In this document: positions 9,326 to 22,679 of the stretch, piece after piece
How the letters are laid out: each line of letters starts with the position of its first letter
How positions within the stretch are numbered: the first letter of the stretch is position 1
Assembly: GCA_016871355.1 (NCBI GenBank)
Contig: VFZC01000024.1
Span: forward strand, 1-37,403
Source: Actinomycetota bacterium
Lineage (GTDB): Bacteria > Actinomycetota > Acidimicrobiia > Acidimicrobiales > Ilumatobacteraceae
Length of the DNA stretch: 37,403 nt
Direction of reading: 5' to 3'
Position numbers and translations under genes: made by a program
Notes under the pieces: generated by a model
Told to the model about the DNA's origin: nothing
What the model saw: the letters and a program-made list of their open reading frames with translations, nothing else
Database searches by the model: none

Positions 9326-10300
9326 TCAGTCGTCGACGCGTCGCGCGTCCTCGATGAGGTTGATCTGATACAGAACCTCGTCGAGGGCGTCGGCGGCGCT
9401 GACGGCCGAGAACCGCTGCGGCGTCTCGGGCCCGCAACAACTCGGCACGGGCGACAAGATCGTCCAGGGCCGCGGGTGCAAGAACTGCACCACGCTGTAG
9501 CGCTCGCCTTCGAAACCAGGTGACGCCACCACTCGATGCCAACCAACCGGAATCACTCCGTTGGTGAGACGCTCGAGCATGATCCCGGTGTTGATGATCA
9601 CCTTGTCGTCGGGCGGAATCGCATCGACCCACTGTCCGTCGACTTCCACCTGAAGACCGGGAGCGGTGGCGCGCGGTAACGCGGTGATGAGGTTGATGTC
9701 GCCGTGAGCACCCGCCCACACGTGACCGCCGGCTGGTGCGTCCTTCATGGATGGATAGCGAATCGCGCGGGTGAGCGTAGGACCGTCTTGAACCATGTCG
9801 TCGAAGAATGTTTCACCGCAACCGATTCCGAGGGCGATCACGCGCAAGAAGCGACGCTGCAGATCGGCGATCGCGTCGTGGAACGCGTACAGAACTTTGG
9901 AGATACCCGGGACCACGGCATCGGGGAGCAATTGGTCGGGATACGACCCGGGGAACTTGCGGCGCAGCGGATGACCGGTCGCGATGGGCGACGCCCAGTT
10001 GAGCATCTCTTTCCAGTCGGGCTTGTCGCTGGAGGCCGCGGTCTCGACCAACAGGCCGGTGTAGCCGGTCTGGCCGTGCGCACCCGGGGCCACGAAGTTC
10101 TGTTTCACGTCGGGCGCCATCGAGAAGAACTCGCGCAGCATTCCGTAGGCGGAATCGAGCAGATCGTCCGACAGGTCGGAGCTCGTGTACACGAATCCGG
10201 TTTCGAGACTGCGACGGACTCCGTCGACCACGGCACGACGGGTCGATTCGGACCCGGACTCGAAGGCGAGCAGATCGACGTCGAGGATCTGACTGGTCAT
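9326..10300 (-). CDS. 2-oxoglutarate/Fe(II)-dependent oxygenase (isopenicillin N synthase-like)
   Basis: A 324-residue protein of the isopenicillin-N-synthase-like family. An N-terminal DIOX_N-type region is followed by the jelly-roll core. The iron ligands are visible as H-x-D in AHGDINLITAL (~199/201) and the distal histidine in GWHRVV (~253). The R-x-S cosubstrate motif is in GERYSVVQFLHP (~265). Such enzymes hydroxylate, desaturate or cyclise small molecules using O2; the substrate cannot be told here. ATG 10300 is used because the family N-terminus (ILDVDLLAF) begins there. It sits nine bases from the end of the next minus-strand gene, so co-transcription with the PLP genes is likely. 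Confidence 0.84.
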   Translation of the reverse strand: MTSQILDVDLLAFESGSESTRRAVVDGVRRSLETGFVYTSSDLSDDLLDSAYGMLREFFSMAPDVKQNFVAPGAHGQTGYTGLLVETAASSDKPDWKEMLNWASPIATGHPLRRKFPGSYPDQLLPDAVVPGISKVLYAFHDAIADLQRRFLRVIALGIGCGETFFDDMVQDGPTLTRAIRYPSMKDAPAGGHVWAGAHGDINLITALPRATAPGLQVEVDGQWVDAIPPDDKVIINTGIMLERLTNGVIPVGWHRVVASPGFEGERYSVVQFLHPRPWTILSPVPSCCGPETPQRFSAVSAADALDEVLYQINLIEDARRVDD

Positions 10301-10310
10301 GACGTCAACG

Positions 10311-11381
10311 CTAACGGTTGAGCGCTTGATCGAGGTCGCGCCACAGATCGTCGACGTCTTCGATACCGACCGACATGCGCACGAGACCCGGCTCGACGTG
10401 CGCATCACCCGGATACTTCTGACGTCGCTCCATGGTGGTCTCGACACCACCCAGACTGGTGGCCTCGACGATCACTTGGGTGGACGCACACACTCGGTCG
10501 GCGGCTGACGCCCCACCCCGCACCACGAAACTCACCATCGGGCCGACTCGTCGTACCGACTCGACCGCGCGATGGGAGGCCAGACGTTCGGCGAGTACAC
10601 CGGCCGACTCGGAGGCTGCTGCGTAGCGGAGTGGCAAGGTGCGTAGTCCGCGCAGCGCGAGGAACGCTTCGAGGGCGCCGGGCGTGGCGCCTTGAACCAC
10701 GCGGGCCCGCGCCAAGGCGTCGTACACGGCGTCGTCGTTGGTGCAGGCGAGGCCGATGAGCAGATCGCTGTGGCCACCGATGAACTTGGTGCCCGAGTGC
10801 ATGACCACCGTGGCCCCGTTGGCCAAGGGTTGAACGCCGATGGGCGTGGCGAAGGTCGAGTCGACCACGGTGCGAACTCCGCGCGCACTCGCTTCACGAC
10901 ACAAACGAGCGAGATCGGCTTCGTCGAGAGTGGGATTGGTGGGTGTTTCGATCCAGAGCAGCACTCCGTCGGCGCCGAGCGACGCATCACGTTCGGCCCG
11001 TTCGATCGCCGCGACCACCTCGAGCGTGTTCTGAATGACGACGGGAACCGTGGTGAGAGTTCCGCGTTCGGCCAAGTCGCTGAGCAACGCGCGAACTCCG
11101 AGATAACTCACCGATGGCACCACCACGATCTGTGGGCGTAGTGCGAACAGAATCGCCGACGCCACGGCCATACCCGACGAGTACGAGAGGCAGCGCCCAC
11201 CTTCGAGTCGGCCCACCGCATCTTCGAGCGACGCCCAGGTGTCGGTTCCGTGGGTGCGCGAGTACTCCGGACCACTGCGGAAGTTGGACGCCAACGTGAT
11301 GGGCGTGTTGAGCGGATCGCCGGGTTGATCGGGTCGCCCGGCCGTGACGGCAACGGTGCGCGGCTTGGGTTGCTCAGTCAT
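10311..11381 (-). CDS. Cys/Met-metabolism PLP enzyme (cystathionine gamma-synthase family)
   Basis: A 356-residue fold-type I PLP enzyme of the trans-sulfuration family. Visible motifs are LEGGRCLSYSSGMAV (PLP phosphate site), WIETPTNPTLDEAD, and the PLP lysine in MHSGTKFIGGHSD (K at ~199). It also has the late TSLGGVETTMERR block and GLVRMSVGIED. Members make or break C-S bonds in cystathionine, homocysteine or methionine; the exact reaction is unresolved. The ATG at 11381 overlaps the preceding gene by eight bases, indicating coupling to the D-cysteine desulfhydrase-like gene. Confidence 0.85.
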   Translation of the reverse strand: MTEQPKPRTVAVTAGRPDQPGDPLNTPITLASNFRSGPEYSRTHGTDTWASLEDAVGRLEGGRCLSYSSGMAVASAILFALRPQIVVVPSVSYLGVRALLSDLAERGTLTTVPVVIQNTLEVVAAIERAERDASLGADGVLLWIETPTNPTLDEADLARLCREASARGVRTVVDSTFATPIGVQPLANGATVVMHSGTKFIGGHSDLLIGLACTNDDAVYDALARARVVQGATPGALEAFLALRGLRTLPLRYAAASESAGVLAERLASHRAVESVRRVGPMVSFVVRGGASAADRVCASTQVIVEATSLGGVETTMERRQKYPGDAHVEPGLVRMSVGIEDVDDLWRDLDQALNR

Positions 11382-12390
11382 GATGCACGAACACTTCTGG
11401 TTGACCTCCGGTGTGGATCCACACCACATTGTCGCCGCTCGCCCACCGACCGTCGGCGGCATTGCCCAACAGGCCGGCCATACCCTTGGCCGTGTACACG
11501 GCGTCGAGCACCCAGGCGCCGGTGCGCGCGGCCCAGTCGGCCGCTCCGGTCGATTCGGGCGTGGCGATCGCGTAGTCGGCACCCAACCAACGCGCGTCCA
11601 CGTCCACATCGGCCGTCTCGACGCGTCCGGGTAGCCCGGCCTGCCGCAACGCATCGTTGGCGAGTTGATCGACACTCGGGAATCCGGCCACGACACCCTT
11701 GGCCACTCCGATGGCGACGACCGGTGGATGCGCCAAGCCGAGCACGCGACGCCACGCGCGCCCCGCCACCAGACCCGCGTGCGTGCCTCCGCTCGACGAC
11801 GTGAACACGATGGCACGGGGAGTGAAGCCACTGCTGGTGCACTGCTCGACGATCTCGTCGTACGCGAGCACGTAGCCGAGCGCACCCACGTGCGTGGAGC
11901 CTCCGATCGGAATGGAATACGGCGTGAGCCTCTGTGCCGCCAACTCGTCGGTGAGTGATTCGCGCGCGATCTCGAGCACTCCCCACTCGGACGGACCGGC
12001 TCCGGTGAAGTGCATGTGCGCGCCGAACCGATCGGACAACAACTGGTTGCCTTCGAGACGATCGGGGCGATCGCCGGCGAGGACGAGATGCGTTTCGAGG
12101 CCGAGCAGGGATCCGGCGGCCGCTGTCATGCGGCAGTGATTCGACTGACCCGCACCGACGGTGACGAGCGCACGCGCACCATTGCGTACGGCGTCACCGC
12201 ACAAGAACTCGAGTTTGCGGGCCTTGTTGCCGCCCATGCCCAAGCCGGTGAGGTCGTCGCGTTTCACCCACAACCGAACACCGTTGCCGACGAGCGGGCC
12301 GCGTTCGAGCGGCGTGGGCAGAGTGGCCAGTCGGACGCGCGGTACGCCGTGCCATTCGGTGAGGCGTTCAGTGGCGAGATCCGACGTCAC
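11374..12390 (-). CDS. D-cysteine desulfhydrase / ACC deaminase family PLP enzyme
   Basis: A 338-residue fold-type II PLP enzyme. GMGGNKARKLEF carries the PLP lysine (K56), followed by TVGAGQSNHCRMTAA and the glycine-rich TSSSGGTHAG phosphate loop. The pattern fits the D-cysteine desulfhydrase / 1-aminocyclopropane-1-carboxylate deaminase family, which cleaves D-cysteine to pyruvate, H2S and ammonia or opens the ACC ring. Coupling to a trans-sulfuration enzyme favours a sulfur amino-acid substrate (inference). It is divergent from ung with a ~33-base gap. Confidence 0.84.
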   Translation of the reverse strand: MTSDLATERLTEWHGVPRVRLATLPTPLERGPLVGNGVRLWVKRDDLTGLGMGGNKARKLEFLCGDAVRNGARALVTVGAGQSNHCRMTAAAGSLLGLETHLVLAGDRPDRLEGNQLLSDRFGAHMHFTGAGPSEWGVLEIARESLTDELAAQRLTPYSIPIGGSTHVGALGYVLAYDEIVEQCTSSGFTPRAIVFTSSSGGTHAGLVAGRAWRRVLGLAHPPVVAIGVAKGVVAGFPSVDQLANDALRQAGLPGRVETADVDVDARWLGADYAIATPESTGAADWAARTGAWVLDAVYTAKGMAGLLGNAADGRWASGDNVVWIHTGGQPEVFVHHD

Positions 12391-12423
12391 GCTTCGAGGC
12401 TACGAGACGATGTCGAATCGCAC

Positions 12424-13110
12424 ATGGCCGACTGCCAAGATGAGCCGGTGCCGACCACCGACTGGAACCCGATTCTGCGGGCCGAGTTCAATGAGCCGTA
12501 CTGGGGGGAACTCCAGTCGTTCGTGGCCGACGAAAGGTTGCGCGGTCCCGTCTATCCGCCGGCGGCCGATGTGTTCGCCGCGTTGCATCTCACGACGTAC
12601 GCCGACACCAAAGTGGTGATCCTCGGCCAGGATCCGTATCACGGGGCCGGTCAGGCTCATGGTCTGTGTTTCTCGGTGCGTCAGGGTGTGGCGATTCCGC
12701 CGTCGCTGCGCAACATCTACCAAGAACTCCGAGACGACCTCGGCTCCACGATTCCGAAGCACGGCAACTTGGAGCAGTGGGCACGACAAGGTGTGCTGTT
12801 GCTCAACACCACGCTCACGGTTCGCGCCGGTCAAGCCGCGTCACATCAGGGTCAGGGCTGGGAACGCTTCACCGATCGGGTGATCGGCGCCGTGAACGCC
12901 AAGACCGATCGCGTGGTGTTCTTGTTGTGGGGCGCGCCGTCACGAAAGAAGAAGTCGCTCATCGACGCGAGCCGCCACACGATCATCGAGTCGGCTCATC
13001 CGTCGCCGCTCTCGGCCCACAACGGGTTCTTCGGGTCCCGACCCTTCTCGCGCGCGAATGCCGCGTTGCGAGAAGGGGGCCGGGACCCGATCGATTGGCA
13101 GATCAGCTAG
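12424..13110 (+). CDS. ung: Uracil-DNA glycosylase (family 1)
   Basis: A 228-residue family 1 UDG that excises uracil from DNA in base excision repair. The catalytic water-activating motif GQDPYHG is at 68-74 (D70). LLLNTTLTV forms the uracil pocket, and HPSPLS (~192-197) is the minor-groove intercalation loop. The start is either ATG 12424 or GTG 12448 (protein beginning MPTTDWNP); the latter has a weak GATGAG upstream. The frame is open further upstream, but that part lies opposite the desulfhydrase-like gene. The 3' end overlaps the convergent binding-protein gene by eight bases. Confidence 0.93.
   Translation: MADCQDEPVPTTDWNPILRAEFNEPYWGELQSFVADERLRGPVYPPAADVFAALHLTTYADTKVVILGQDPYHGAGQAHGLCFSVRQGVAIPPSLRNIYQELRDDLGSTIPKHGNLEQWARQGVLLLNTTLTVRAGQAASHQGQGWERFTDRVIGAVNAKTDRVVFLLWGAPSRKKKSLIDASRHTIIESAHPSPLSAHNGFFGSRPFSRANAALREGGRDPIDWQIS
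13031..13090 (-). terminator. Long inverted repeat in the ung 3' end, possible terminator for the binding-protein gene
   Basis: Bases 13031-13051 and 13068-13090 are near-complementary arms (core GGGTCCCG paired with CGGGACCC, and CTTCTCGC paired with GCGAGAAG) separated by 16 bases. It lies inside the ung coding sequence but directly downstream of the stop of the convergent gene that ends at 13103. It could therefore terminate transcription of that gene. There is no T-run. The arms encode ordinary UDG residues (GSRPFSR and REGGRDP), so coding chance is an alternative. Confidence 0.4.
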
Positions 13111-14836: not shown

Positions 14837-14838
14837 GG

Positions 14839-17766
14839 TTATCCCCCTTGCCCGGAACGGGCGATCGCGGCACTCGACGTGCCGAGGTATGACTCGACGA
14901 CCAACGGGTGTACGAGGACATCAGACGGTGGGCCACTGGTGACCACTCGTCCTTGATCCATCGCGACCAGTCGATCGGCGACCGATGAGATGAACGGAAT
15001 GTCGTGTTCGACAATGAGAAGAGCAGCTCCCATGTCGTCACGCAGACGGCGAACGACCGGGGCCAACGCCTCGACTTCACGTTGCGCGAGCCCCGAGGTG
15101 GGTTCGTCGAGAAGGATCACGGTGGGCCGGTGAGCGACTAAGCACGCCAGGTCAACGATGCGTCGGATGCCGGTGGACAACTCGCGGGTGGCCTTGCGCT
15201 GGAAGTCCCCGAGGCCCAGCACCTCGATCAATTCGTCGACACGCTGGCGAACCGCGTCCTCCGACTCGAAGACCGGCGGCAGGTAGAGCGCAGCCGCCAA
15301 CGCACTGCGTGTGCTCACCCATCGTTCGAGCGACACCGCGAGCGTTTCGCGCACGGTGAGTTCGGGGAACAATCGCGCGTCCTGGAACGAACGGCCGAGA
15401 CCCGCGTTGGCTCGACCGTTGGGTGACGCACTCGTGACATTACGCCCCCCCACTTCGATCGTGCCGTCGATGAGCGGGGTGTAGCCCGAGATAAGATCGA
15501 AGAGCGTCGTCTTGCCGGCTCCGTTCGGACCGATCACGCCGACGATCTCACGTTCGCGAACCTCGATCGACACCCCGTCGACCGCGCGAATGCCACCGAA
15601 GCCGGCTGAGACTCCGTTGGTGCGCAGCACGATAGTGTCACCCACGGACGACGACTCGTGCGCAGTAGTCGACGTATCGTCGGCCATTCCCGACAAGAAG
15701 ACCGACCGCAGAACGTCGGGCCGTTGCAACAATTCGGTGGTGGGTCCGGAGAATCGGATCTCGCCGCGCTCGAGGAAGTAGGCCCGCTCGGCCACGGTGA
15801 GAGCCACGTTGACGCTCTGCTCCACGAGCACGACCGTGACACCGTCGTTCGACATGCGCTGCACGATCGGCAGCATCTGCCCCACCACCACCGGGGCCAA
15901 CCCGAGCGAGAGTTCGTCGATGAGCAACACCTTAGGCCGCATCACGAAGCTCATCGCCAGGGCGAGCATCTGCTGTTGACCGCCCGACAAGTTGACCGCC
16001 GGCTCATCGAGGCGAGCAGCCAGCATCGGGAAGATCTCGAGGACTTCGACTTTGGCTCGTTCGACGCCGGCGGAATCGCGCCGGTTGGTCCAGCCCGACA
16101 GGTCGAGGTTCTCGCGCACCGTGAGCGAACCGAACACGCCCGCACCACCGGGCATCTGCACGATGCCGAGGTGCGCGATCTCGTGCGGCGGTGCGTGGGT
16201 GATGTCGCGGCCGTCGAAGATCACTGCGCCGCGATCGGCCTCGACCACACCACTAATCGTCTTGAGAAGAGTGCTCTTGCCCGCACCGTTGGTGCCGAGC
16301 AGCGCGATGATCTCCCCTTCTTCGAGATCCATGTCAATGCTGTGCAGCACCGGCCGGCCGTCGTAGCCCGAGCGCACGCCGCGCAGAATGAGCAACTTGG
16401 CTCGCCCCTGGCGTCGTTCGTACAACACTTCCGATCGTGCGGCCGCCGACTGCCATACCTGGCCGATGTCGTCCATGATCACGTTGCCGATGGTGCGCTG
16501 AATGAGTCCGCCGATGATGAAGAGCGGGATCATCACGAGCATTCCGATGCGAATCGTGAACTGATCGGCCAACCAACCGATCATCGGCAGCACGAACAGA
16601 CCCGGAATGACCCACAGCGATGCCACCGAGAAACCGGTGGCGCGGGCCCTTGGCGGAATCGCCAACGAGAGTCCGGAGAACACCGCCGGCGCCAAGATGG
16701 CCAACGCCGCCGAGATCACGCAGTTGATGGCCACCGCCACCACGATGTTGGGGGCCAACGCGAACGCGGCGGCCAACACGGCGGCGGCGATCGAAACGTT
16801 CGCGCCCACCTTGGTGAGACCGGCCACGTTGTTGGCGTAGCGCTTGGCAATGTAACGACTTCCGACCACCAGACCCACCAACTGGAACGGCTCGGAGATG
16901 GCCGCTGCCACACCACGCGCGCGTTCGTCGAGGCCGAACTCCTGGTCGTACATCAGCGAGGCCAACGACACGAACCCGATGAGGCCGGTGGCGAGGAACG
17001 GCAGGCTGTACCAGATTCGCCTCAGCGACTGGACTTTGTGCACCGTACGCCAACTCTCACTGAACGACGGCGCCACTTCTTCGGTCGCGGCCACTTCGTC
17101 GGACACGCCCATGGCCTTGCGTTCCCACTGCCCGCGCACCGGCTCGACCAGACGCAGAGCGAGCACCGCGAAGATGATCGTCGGAACGATGAACACGAAG
17201 AACGGTGTTCGCCAGCCGAAGTAGTACGCGAGTAGACCAGCACTCAGCGGGCCGACGAACGCGCCCACCGCGTTGGCCGCCCGGTGTACCGAGAACACTT
17301 TCGTGCGCGCTTCGATCGGGTAGTAGTCGGAGATCAACGAGTTGTGCGTTGGATCGATGACCGCCTTACCGAGAGCCGATCCGCTGCGCGCGATGGTGAG
17401 CACGATGAGACCGGTGGCCAGGCCGGTGAGGCCGGAGAACATGGCCCACACCAACGCGCCGATGAGCGCGAGCCGGGTGCGCTTCGAGTGATCGGCGATC
17501 TGCGCGATGGGTACCTGCAGCGCGAGGGCCGCCACACTGGCCAGGCCCACCAATCCCAACGTGGTTCCGAGATCGAGATCGAAGTGCTCGCGAATTTCGG
17601 GCAGCAAGATGCCGAACGCGGCGCGGTCGAGTTCGTCGACGGCGTTGAGCCCGAAGAGAATCACCAACGGGTACACGGGTTGACCGCCGCACACGTCGCT
17701 CAGCCACGAACTCGGATGGCGGAATCCATACCAGAACCGCTTCCACAGCGACGCCTTCTCGCTCAC
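14839..17766 (-). CDS. MFS-LivF-LivG triple fusion: transporter domain plus two ABC ATPases
   Basis: One uninterrupted frame of 975 residues. Residues ~1-440 are a major facilitator domain with ~10-12 hydrophobic segments and a motif A-like loop ([10 protein letters not shown]). Residues ~457-700 are a LivF-type ATPase: Walker [10 protein letters not shown] (~493), signature LSGGQQQ, Walker B LLIDE. Residues ~712-975 are a LivG-type ATPase: Walker [10 protein letters not shown] (~743), signature LSTGIRR, Walker [12 protein letters not shown]. The GTG at 17766 overlaps the LivHM stop by four bases (GTGA). LivF and LivG normally are separate proteins that power LivHM; the MFS part is not expected there. 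It may couple a second transport or exporter route, or have become a scaffold. The frame is open upstream to 18792, but only as a shadow of the LivHM gene. Confidence 0.9.
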
Positions 17767-19857: not shown

Positions 19858-20247
19858 GTGGGAACAGTCAGGCGGCACGTGTTCATCGATCGACCGGCTG
19901 AGCATGTGTGGTCGCTGGTCGGCGATCCGGCTCGACTGCACGAGTGGTTTCCCACCACCGCCACGGAAGTAGTCGGCAACAAGCGTTGGGTCTCGTTGGC
20001 CTCGGGTCTGAAGTTCGAAGAAGACATCGTCACGCTCGACCACGACCTACGGCGCTTCCAGTACACGATCGTCAACAACGCGATCGTGAAGTCGCACCTC
20101 GGCACGGTCGACGTCATTCCAGACGGTGATGCGCGCTGCGTGGTGGTCTATTCCACCGACGCCGACCCCGAGGTGATGGCGCTCATGATCGCCGGGGCCG
20201 CTGGCGATGGTCTCGAACGGCTCAAGACAACGATGGAGGAGTCCTGA
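19858..20247 (+). CDS. SRPBCC-family protein
   Basis: A 129-residue protein with the START/polyketide-cyclase-like pattern: an N-terminal strand VRRHVFIDRPAEHVWSLVGDP, the LHEWFP helix, mid-strands around YTIVNN, and a long C-terminal helix. The fold holds hydrophobic ligands; no specific role can be read from it. GTG 19858 is the only start that keeps the full fold and avoids the divergent LivHM gene. Its stop shares a base with the sulfatase ATG, so the two are coupled. Confidence 0.75.
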   Translation: MGTVRRHVFIDRPAEHVWSLVGDPARLHEWFPTTATEVVGNKRWVSLASGLKFEEDIVTLDHDLRRFQYTIVNNAIVKSHLGTVDVIPDGDARCVVVYSTDADPEVMALMIAGAAGDGLERLKTTMEES

Positions 20248-21800
20248 TGGGTCGCAAGATCCTGTTCATCACGACCGACCAGCAGCGGTTTGATTCACTG
20301 GGCTGCAACGGCGGCTCGGTGGCTCGCACCCCCACCATCGATCGACTGGCCGCCGACGGCATCAACTACACGCGCGCACATCCGCAGAGCGTGGTGTGCA
20401 TGCCGTCGCGCTCCACCATGATCACCGGTCAACACGTGGCCACGCATGGCGTGTGGATGAACGGTGTGCCGCTCCCTGACGAAGCTCCCAGCATCGCCAG
20501 CACCCTGCACGACGTCGGCTACCGCACCGCACTCATCGGCAAGGCTCATTTCGAGCCGTTCCTCGATCCGTTCCTGCGTTTCGTCGAGAACCAGCTGGGC
20601 ACATCGGGAGATTTCTCGCGCGATGTGAACGGCCATCTGCATCGCGGTTTCGATCACATGGAATCGGCGTCGCACGGAGGCATGGGCAGCTTCCACTACG
20701 CGCGTTGGCTCATGCAGAACCATCCCGAAGCGATCGGTATGTACTACCGAGTGCTCGACATGACGCTGCAGGTGAACTCGAGTGGTGGCGGCGACACCGC
20801 CGGCCCGCAGGTTCATCACAACGCGATTCCGCGCGAGTGGTATCACACCGAGTGGGTGGCCGATCGCACGATCGCCTGGCTCGATTCGCTGAACGCGAAC
20901 GACGACTGGTTCTGCTGGATGAGTTTCCCCGATCCGCATCACCCGTGGGATCCGCCGCAATCCGAACTGCACCGTGTGAACTGGCGCGATCTCGATCTGC
21001 CCGAGAACTATCCGGTCGATCGAACCGAGCGCGAGGCGATTCTCGACGCCAAGCCGCGTCACTGGCGTCTGTGGTACGAGGGCGAATTCGTGTCGAACTA
21101 CGAGGCGCCGGCCAGTTGGGTTCCGAAGACGCTCACCGACGATCAGGTGCGCGAGATCAACGCGCTCACGCACATCGAGAACGAACTCATCGACGAGGCC
21201 ATCGCGCGCGTACTCCGCACGGTGGCGGCGCGCGGTTGGGCCGACGACGTCGACATCGTCTTCACCACCGATCACGGCGAACTACAGGGTGACTACGGCT
21301 TGTTGTTCAAGGGGCCGCAGCACGTCGATTCGCTCATGCGCCTGCCGCTCATCTGGCGTCCGGCCCCGTCGGCGGGTGTGGCGCCGTCCACGGTGACGTC
21401 GCCCGTCGGTTTGGTGTCGCTCGCGTCCACGTTCGCGCACATCGCAGGTGTTCCCGAGCCGTCGTACGTCGAGGCGCATCGTCTGCCCACCCACGACGCC
21501 GAAGCCCCGGCCCTCGGCCACGAGCGCGTGCTCACCGAATGGGACTCGGTGCTGTTCGGCAAGATCGTGCGGCTGCGCACCATCTGCCGCGACGGCTGGG
21601 TGGCCACGGCCTGCCTACCCGGCACGGTGCACGACGGCAGCGAGGGCGAGTTGTACGACGTGTCCAACGATCCGCTGCAGCGCGAGAACCTCTGGAACGA
21701 TCCGCGCCTGGAGGGCACGAAGAGCGATCTGCTCGCCGACATGTGGGATTCGCTCCCGAGCACCGCGTCGCCGCGACGCGAGTGCGACGCACCGGTCTGA
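20247..21800 (+). CDS. Type I sulfatase (formylglycine-dependent)
   Basis: A 517-residue sulfatase of the alkaline phosphatase superfamily. The N-terminal metal motif is FITTDQQR (D11). The signature CMPSRSTMITG begins at C51, the cysteine that an FGE-type enzyme would convert to formylglycine. The second metal motif TTDHGELQGDYG lies near residue 345. It hydrolyses a sulfate ester, or possibly a related phosphonate/phosphate ester; the substrate is not evident. No signal peptide is seen, so it is probably cytoplasmic. GGAGGAG lies 5-11 bases before the ATG. Confidence 0.87.
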   Translation: MGRKILFITTDQQRFDSLGCNGGSVARTPTIDRLAADGINYTRAHPQSVVCMPSRSTMITGQHVATHGVWMNGVPLPDEAPSIASTLHDVGYRTALIGKAHFEPFLDPFLRFVENQLGTSGDFSRDVNGHLHRGFDHMESASHGGMGSFHYARWLMQNHPEAIGMYYRVLDMTLQVNSSGGGDTAGPQVHHNAIPREWYHTEWVADRTIAWLDSLNANDDWFCWMSFPDPHHPWDPPQSELHRVNWRDLDLPENYPVDRTEREAILDAKPRHWRLWYEGEFVSNYEAPASWVPKTLTDDQVREINALTHIENELIDEAIARVLRTVAARGWADDVDIVFTTDHGELQGDYGLLFKGPQHVDSLMRLPLIWRPAPSAGVAPSTVTSPVGLVSLASTFAHIAGVPEPSYVEAHRLPTHDAEAPALGHERVLTEWDSVLFGKIVRLRTICRDGWVATACLPGTVHDGSEGELYDVSNDPLQRENLWNDPRLEGTKSDLLADMWDSLPSTASPRRECDAPV

Positions 21801-21809
21801 TCGAGTCGT

Positions 21810-22679
21810 TCAGTCGGCGCCGTCGAGGCGCACGATCGGTTCGTACAACTCGGGTCGCCGATCGCGGAACACTCCCCAACTCTGGCGAAGTGCGGCCACG
21901 GCATCGAGATCGAACTCGGCCGTGATCACGGCTTCGCTCGTGCGATCGGCTTCGACGATCACCTCACCGGTGGGTCCGGCGATGAACGAGGTTCCGTAGA
22001 ACGTGAGGGTGTGCTGTCGACCGGTCTCGACACCCACGCGATTGGCCGCGATCACCGGCACCAAGTTGGCTCCGGCGTGACCCTGCATCACCCGTTGCCA
22101 ATGGCGACTCGAGTCGTACGTCGGATCATGGGGCTCGCTACCGATTGCCGTCGGATACAGAATCACCTCGGCGCCGCGCAGTGCGAGCACGCGCGCGGCT
22201 TCCGGGAACCACTGATCCCAGCAGATGGCGAGGCCGATGCGACCGACCTTGGTGTCCCACACGCGAAAGCCGGTGTCACCCGGATTGAAGTAGTACTTCT
22301 CCGAGTAGCCCGGACCATCGGGGATGTGACTCTTGCGGTACACGCCCAGGACGGTGCCGTCGGCATCGATGATGGCCACCGAATTGAACGCGGCGTTGTT
22401 GGCGCGCTCGAAGAAGCTCACCGGGAGCACCACACCGAGTTCGGCCGCCACGCGTGCGAAATGGGCGATGGTCGGGTGTCCGTCGAGCGGTCGAGCCCGG
22501 CTCATGTGATCGGCCAGTTGATCGGTGCAGAAGTAATGACCCTCGAAGAGTTCGGGAATCTGTACGAGACGCGCACCGCGTGACGCGGCCTCACACACGA
22601 GTCGTTCGGCAGTGGCGACGTTGATGGCGATGTCGTCGGTCATCGCCATCTGCACGGCGGCAACGACGAGCGGGCGCAT
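21810..22679 (-). CDS. aguB: N-carbamoylputrescine amidase
   Basis: A 289-residue nitrilase-superfamily enzyme. The catalytic Glu-Lys-Cys triad is visible in PELFEGHYF, YRKSHIPDGPGYSEKYYFNPG and ICWDQWFPEA. The block after the cysteine (YPTAIGSEPHDP... HWQRVMQGHAGAN) and the ending RDRRPELYEP match N-carbamoylputrescine amidases closely. These convert N-carbamoylputrescine to putrescine, CO2 and ammonia in the agmatine route. No agmatine deiminase gene is seen nearby. The flavodoxin-like gene upstream ends three bases before this ATG, so they are probably co-transcribed. Confidence 0.87.
   Translation of the reverse strand: MRPLVVAAVQMAMTDDIAINVATAERLVCEAASRGARLVQIPELFEGHYFCTDQLADHMSRARPLDGHPTIAHFARVAAELGVVLPVSFFERANNAAFNSVAIIDADGTVLGVYRKSHIPDGPGYSEKYYFNPGDTGFRVWDTKVGRIGLAICWDQWFPEAARVLALRGAEVILYPTAIGSEPHDPTYDSSRHWQRVMQGHAGANLVPVIAANRVGVETGRQHTLTFYGTSFIAGPTGEVIVEADRTSEAVITAEFDLDAVAALRQSWGVFRDRRPELYEPIVRLDGAD

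Follow-up and report, generated by a model that had tools for sequence, protein, structure and literature searches.

What does a transport operon do in which a carrier of the major facilitator superfamily (MFS) is read in one polypeptide with both ATPases of a Liv-type ABC importer? The question is raised by a locus of an Ilumatobacteraceae genome (Actinomycetota; Acidimicrobiia), found in the 37,403 nucleotides of contig VFZC01000024.1 (assembly GCA_016871355.1), the whole of which we refer to as the window. The initial annotation, made from the sequence alone, had described a single uninterrupted frame of 975 residues in which an MFS domain is followed by LivF-like and LivG-like ATPases. This description proved correct: the fusion is one 975-codon frame on the minus strand, running from 17766 to 14839, with a GTG start and no internal stop, and the plus strand across 14839–17766 carries several stops in the corresponding frame.

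The fusion gene and its operon

The fusion gene (14839–17766, minus strand; 975 aa), defined by its translation, its Pfam and NCBIfam matches and an AlphaFold2 model, opens with an MFS domain whose helices span residues 32–428 (16483–17673, minus strand), as delimited by Pfam, a profile comparison with solved structures, hydropathy and the helices of the model. Ten to twelve membrane segments had been anticipated; hydropathy gave 12, the model agreed, and Pfam MFS_1 matched residues 38–384 with 119 bits (cut-off 33), which together with the motif A/B relay described below places the domain in the superfamily. The model (62-row alignment; mean pLDDT 83, pTM 0.64) also contains two ATPase domains and, after the final MFS helix, a continuous helix at residues 430–452. 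The helical joint that links MFS helix 12 to LivF (residues 429–456; 16399–16482, minus strand) is based on this model helix and on a fixed spacing, and LivF begins at residue 457.

The LivF-like ATPase (residues 457–691; 15694–16398, minus strand) was recognized by its motifs and by the NCBIfam UrtE model at residues 461–679 (1.8e-91, above cut-off). The LivG-like ATPase (residues 712–962; 14881–15633, minus strand) was recognized by its motifs and by the UrtD model at residues 713–963 (4e-87; 291.9 bits, slightly below the cut-off of 304.1), and the LivF and LivG models were matched below their cut-offs. Pfam ABC_tran matched the fusion in two stretches (195 bits). Walker A, signature and Walker B motifs, which had been reported for each ATPase, are present in the window fusion and in nearly all homologous frames: both ATPases have an intact Walker A in 93/93 frames, and the signature and Walker B patterns were found in 89–90 of the 93 (duplicates kept). 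The VEHD pattern of the LivG H-loop occurs in only 14/93 frames, yet the histidine is conserved in 62/62 aligned rows. In a structure search with the whole fusion, the 50 matches listed were all of ABC type and thus uninformative on the MFS fold.

Upstream of the fusion lies one gene encoding both permease domains (LivHM, 687 aa; 19826–17763, minus strand; frame P0002), which matched Pfam BPD_transp_2 in two stretches (179 bits), and downstream lies the gene of a 577-aa substrate-binding protein (SBP; 14836–13103, minus strand). The close packing noted at the outset is borne out by the coordinates, as the LivHM and fusion genes overlap by 4 bases (17763–17766) and only 2 bases (14837–14838) separate the fusion from the SBP gene. 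The start codon that yields the overlap, a predicted start, is present at 100 of the 109 loci examined.

Pfam gave no match for the SBP at 1e-3, and the protein was identified by its fold, as its AlphaFold2 model (pLDDT 94) is of the LIVBP type. The best Foldseek matches, 4ey3 and 4eyg (E 4e-15 and 6e-15), are aromatic-acid binding proteins, neighbours that at 12–13% identity are too weak for ligand assignment. These folds, taken with NCBIfam galactonate and aromatic-acid MFS models matched far below cut-off, give a faint hint that the substrate may be an organic, possibly aromatic, acid. Read from the sequence, the N-terminus has a hydrophobic stretch and no Cys before about residue 95, and the protein seems to be tethered through a membrane helix at its N-terminus and a linker rich in Thr, Ala and Pro, without a lipobox Cys. 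Two cysteines near the start of the fold are invariant in 55 rows.

Judged by sequence and predicted fold, LivHM, LivF, LivG and the SBP are the parts of a Liv-type ABC importer. Like the Liv/Urt-type importers (branched-chain amino acid or urea type), the operon encodes two BPD_transp_2 domains, LivF-like and LivG-like ATPases with intact motifs and an SBP that belongs to the group by fold, not by Pfam. Unlike them, it carries an MFS domain on LivF, and LivH-LivM as well as LivF-LivG are fused.

A uracil-DNA glycosylase frame (12010–13110, plus strand) faces the SBP gene; of the 80 loci kept as best among the relatives' 162, 26 have a cluster of uracil-DNA glycosylase-like frames on the downstream side (duplicates kept). 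Other neighbours in the window (9326–12390, minus strand, and 20247–22679) were assigned by Pfam to a 2OG-Fe(II) dioxygenase, a Cys/Met-metabolism PLP enzyme, a PALP-type PLP enzyme, a sulfatase and a carbon-nitrogen hydrolase. Clustering of the flanking frames returned the uracil-DNA glycosylase and, by eye, a sigma factor, a ROK kinase, UvrD and a sulfatase, with no catabolic partner among them, and in the flanks examined no catabolic gene constantly adjoined the fusion operon.

The Pfam and NCBIfam scans named the individual parts of the fusion, not the MFS-LivF-LivG combination, and a literature search, mostly outside subscription journals, returned no paper or named family for it among the matches listed. 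The kinds of component, a Liv-type importer and an MFS carrier, are known; the combination is unnamed in the databases scanned, and we do not claim that it is absent from print. Two known systems resemble it in idea: TRAP transporters are SBP-dependent secondary carriers, with another carrier fold and neither ATPases nor LivHM, and the ArsAB pump is a carrier with an optional ATPase, built from unrelated families with no Liv permease or SBP. Sensor kinase-MFS fusions, named in PMC3924187, form TCDB family 2.A.1.34; there too an MFS is joined to a non-carrier module, but the partner is a kinase and not ABC ATPases. The phthalate transporter PatDABC was considered as a precedent and rejected, as the accessible part of its description names an ATPase, two permeases and an SBP, and no MFS.

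A conserved family with a constant junction

The initial annotation had held that a hybrid machine of this kind would be unusual. The fusion is not a one-genome oddity: it is a conserved family in Acidimicrobiia (class as given in record titles), with relatives elsewhere in the phylum. A search with the MFS part found matches of at least 330 bits in 29 of 148 genomes of the class, and a search of the phylum found matches at E 1e-30 in 21 of 396 genomes. Relatives were encoded in 162 stretches from named assemblies; the best 80, i.e., those selected for MFS similarity, gave 75 distinct MFS, of which 57 belong to full MFS-F-G frames, 17 are cut by a contig end, one is an MFS-F without LivG that ends 28 bases from the contig end (L143), and none is a lone MFS. 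Another 39 distinct loci comprised 28 MFS-F-G, five MFS-F, a single frame of H-M-MFS-F-G (L071), two lone MFS and three cut frames, and 19 loci, mostly from other groups of the phylum, comprised 10 MFS-F-G, six MFS-F, two lone MFS and one cut frame. Counting the window, there are 134 distinct MFS loci. Four of them are contig-cut before LivF and four hold lone copies; at all others the MFS is read in frame ahead of LivF, and wherever the two share a frame the MFS is N-terminal to LivF. The order LivHM, MFS-F-G, SBP recurs in the complete genome of strain IMCC26256 (CP011489.1, L147) and in Ilumatobacter nonamiensis YM16-303 (L133). Misassembly or a frameshift, the weak point that had been named for the original proposal, is countered by the same order and frame in other assemblies, one complete genome included.

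LivG is placed more freely. At MFS-F loci it is fused to LivHM (L073–L077, L202, L209 and L211, from Embleya) or encoded separately (L194, L196), and at L195 no LivG was found within the 13 kb examined. Queried with the window MFS, plasmids yielded one partial match, and with a family-B MFS a full match to the same Embleya record, which holds an MFS-LivF and LivHM-LivG arrangement. Since the F-G and HM-G junctions vary among MFS-F and MFS-F-G loci, MFS-LivF is the constant junction, and LivG is variously joined to LivF, joined to LivHM or separate.

The same junction is constant in length. Among loci of family A, defined by phmmer scores above 300 bits to the window MFS, the distance from D433 to the LivF Walker A is exactly 58 residues in 100/100 loci where both were located. 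D433 itself is present in 100/100, and both D433 and V437 are invariant in 62/62 aligned rows. This anchored count supersedes the MFS-F spacing taken from match boundaries (17–26 residues; up to about 30). The linker between LivF and LivG varies from 5 to 93 residues. Given this fixed joint and variable linker, the 12-segment MFS carrier, joined onto LivF through a predicted helix of invariant length, appears to be held rigidly to LivF, and LivG loosely.

Three of the four lone MFS copies nest within fused clades in a midpoint-rooted tree. Near two of the lone copies (L191, L068) we found an M20 peptidase, a P-type ATPase, a prolipoprotein transferase and a thiolase, among others, and no Liv genes. 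At L071 (7370–12556) a single frame of 1,729 residues encodes LivH, LivM, a motif-poor MFS, LivF and LivG, i.e., the importer minus its SBP; it was seen in a single genome and could stem from an indel. Tandem pairs of SBP frames follow the fusion gene at L051, L053, L059 and L128. Contigs of metagenome-assembled genomes labelled Bifidobacterium breve, Ferrithrix and Acidobacteria (L088, L089, L110, L134) carry the family at 54–76% identity, and these odd labels look like label or binning errors.

The genome of the window (G000) has other Liv loci. Ordinary layouts are found on contig 18 (H, M, G, F; L212) and contig 17 (G, F, H, M, SBP; L213), and a G-F pair lies at the end of contig 4 (L214). 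A second unusual Liv system is encoded on contig 7 (L078; 12792–14732 and 14339–17356), with a counterpart in the same genus (L210). At L078, LivF has an N-terminal domain of 11 hydropathy segments and stands beside a LivHM-LivG fusion and a Peripla_BP_6 SBP. We considered this pre-LivF domain as another MFS and found homology unsupported (hhalign probability 3.8% against profile A1 and 0.4% against A2), though one match extended from query residue 323 into LivF. Domains of the type occur in 2 of 148 genomes of the class.

The MFS domain and its link to the binding protein

Measured against the window at the 83 loci that have every one of the six domains (duplicates kept), identity averaged 62.0% for the MFS, 58.2% for LivH, 57.0% for LivM, 54.2% for the SBP, 69.9% for LivF and 64.3% for LivG. 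The MFS is more conserved than LivH and LivM of the same operons and less than both ATPases, a pattern that marks it as strongly constrained and no passenger.

Compared as a profile (A1) with solved structures, the MFS matched best the bacterial spinster transporter HnSpns (6e8j, E 6e-24), with EfpA, a spinster homologue and an antiseptic resistance protein among the other top relatives and a galactonate transporter also present. PMC9440201 assigns Asp87, Arg91 and Asp142 of HnSpns to the charge relay of motif A and Arg122 to motif B as its arginine, and gives two putative proton sites, Asp41 and Glu129, of which the latter is the suggested main protonation switch. Residues D47, D92, R96, R127 and D147 of the window align to Asp41, Asp87, Arg91, Arg122 and Asp142, respectively, and all five are kept in 104/104 family-A sequences, which indicates that the MFS of close relatives, like spinster-type carriers, retains the residues that drive alternating access in HnSpns. 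Farther out, the five are complete in 11 of 14 divergent MFS-F-G fusions (one of the 14 is contig-cut, with gaps), in 7 of 12 divergent MFS-F and in three of the four lone copies; at L070 and L071, a single side lineage, the motif-A Asp, the motif-B Arg and the TM1 Arg are lost, yet the fusion is retained. Unlike in HnSpns, where it is an acid, the position of Glu129 in TM4 is Lys in 75 and Arg in 17 family-A copies (92/104) and Glu in only two of 104, the window having Lys134, and two ABC ATPases are fused to the carrier. By this position the domain is not placed in the Spns family. Because it is mostly Lys or Arg, Spns-like proton coupling as such would not be expected, and the likeness does not imply lipid transport. 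The best-scoring NCBIfam MFS models were the galactonate (TIGR00893; 87 bits, cut-off 395) and aromatic-acid (TIGR00895; 69 bits, cut-off 419) symporters, scores far under the cut-offs, and the domain is not a member of either subfamily.

Evolutionary rates tie the MFS to the SBP. With a single topology used to fit the branch lengths of the six domains (79 loci, 155 branches), the partial correlation was 0.64 for LivH-LivM, 0.55 for LivF-LivG, 0.43 for MFS-SBP (bootstrap 0.29–0.57) and 0.25 for MFS-LivF (0.09–0.39). MFS-SBP was the third strongest pair, and the SBP was the top partner of the MFS in 96% of 1,000 resamples. On ranks the values for MFS-SBP and MFS-LivF were 0.35 and 0.25. MFS-SBP stood at 0.38 after the longest 10% of branches were dropped, at 0.54 on terminal branches, and at 0.56, 0.52 and 0.55 on topologies from HM, FG and HMFG, respectively; on internal branches it was 0.29 versus 0.28 for MFS-LivF. 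With plain tree distances MFS-SBP (0.87) equalled MFS-LivH and the SBP was the best partner in only 36% of subsamples, the partial value being 0.49. Close linkage fails to explain the covariation, as the MFS domain does not adjoin the SBP gene in the window; shared ligand specificity or physical contact could.

The control was one type of conventional Liv operon, sampled at 49 loci, of which 44 had all five genes (85 branches); here the SBP tracks LivH (0.30) and LivM (0.34), or 0.60 with the two merged. In the fused family the merged value for SBP-HM was 0.30 when the model included the MFS and 0.47 when it did not. A shift of SBP covariation from LivHM to the MFS was rejected, the difference between 0.47 and the control 0.60 having an interval of -0.05 to 0.30, and SBP-MFS exceeded SBP-HM by 0.13, which is not significant (interval -0.12 to 0.38). 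A fair statement is that the MFS appears tied to the SBP about as strongly as the LivHM permease is, and does not look like a permease replacement. Rate covariation is not exclusive to MFS and SBP and is no proof of contact or of a common substrate.

The role of the MFS in the importer

The reading we put first, with a confidence just short of even, is that the operon specifies a hybrid importer: one substrate, perhaps an organic acid, would be handled by an active MFS together with a complete Liv ABC core. As no component of a Liv importer is missing, ATP-driven import through LivHM would be the default. LivHM and the fusion protein would form one complex, with the MFS as an active transport module for the substrate of the SBP, beside the LivHM path; its movement may couple to the ATPase cycle through the joint, and import, exchange and release of substrate are all possible roles. 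Taken together, the fixed joint, the constraint on the domain, its retained relay and its tie to the SBP speak for an active MFS within this complex, and the lone copies within fused clades agree with a domain able to work or persist alone. Counted against this reading are L070 and L071, fused without normal carrier motifs, the incomplete set of five residues in some divergent copies, and the non-exclusive link to the SBP. A hybrid machine was what the initial annotation had envisaged, and its outline stands, in one polypeptide with complete ATPases, a LivHM and a LIVBP-fold SBP in the operon and a constrained MFS; as to the MFS itself, sequence evidence leans to an active carrier over a plain scaffold and proves neither.

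The scaffold is the serious rival, and we hold it possible though doubtful. A non-transporting MFS would anchor both ATPases against LivHM and steady the assembly, and LivHM with LivFG would transport as an ordinary Liv importer. A joint of single fixed length suits such a role, as do the persistence of the fusion at L070 and L071 after the loss of transport motifs and the second Liv system of the same genome, whose LivF carries an 11-segment domain with no Pfam or NCBIfam match. Five intact alternating-access residues throughout family A speak against it, as do a conservation above that of LivH and LivM, the covariation with the SBP and the lone MFS descendants inside fused clades.

A bolder reading, which we think unlikely, has the SBP deliver substrate to the MFS and the LivFG ATPases, which LivHM would share, act through the joint to drive or gate the carrier, making it an ATP-gated, SBP-dependent importer. 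The absent Spns proton switch, the otherwise kept relay, the rigid joint and the MFS-SBP covariation are compatible with such gating. Because SBP-MFS does not significantly exceed SBP-LivHM in strength, we lowered the weight of both this reading and the hybrid importer and raised that of the scaffold.

Rather unlikely, too, is an exchange or release valve, in which LivHM would import with ATP and the MFS of the same complex would export a product or surplus substrate. The top solved relatives of the MFS (Spns, EfpA, the spinster homologue and the antiseptic resistance protein) are mostly exporters, and covariation with the SBP would be expected for related ligands. The best NCBIfam models, although below cut-off, are symporters, a galactonate transporter is among the solved relatives, and the lack of a constant catabolic neighbour in the flanks examined also speaks against export.

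That adjacent genes were fused by chance, each part working alone, is very improbable: fusion is common in the lineage, these operons having LivH joined to LivM and LivF to LivG as well, but a joint of identical length in all 100 family-A loci with invariant D433 and V437, and an MFS that stays on LivF while other junctions change, argue against a neutral join. An assembly or frameshift artefact can be dismissed, for although the window belongs to a draft assembly of 59 contigs with a completeness of 85.8%, the fusion recurs in the same frame in many assemblies, a complete genome among them, with all three domains conserved.

ABC importers and MFS carriers, both among the largest superfamilies of transporters, are as a rule seen as separate solutions to energy coupling. 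Annotation by best domain would call these fusion genes 'MFS transporter' or 'LivF/LivG' and overlook the machine. A conserved ABC-MFS fusion family makes it possible to ask directly if an MFS can be gated by an ATPase and if it can be served by an SBP, and an ATP-gated, SBP-dependent MFS importer, if true, would be a hybrid of primary and secondary transport within one complex.
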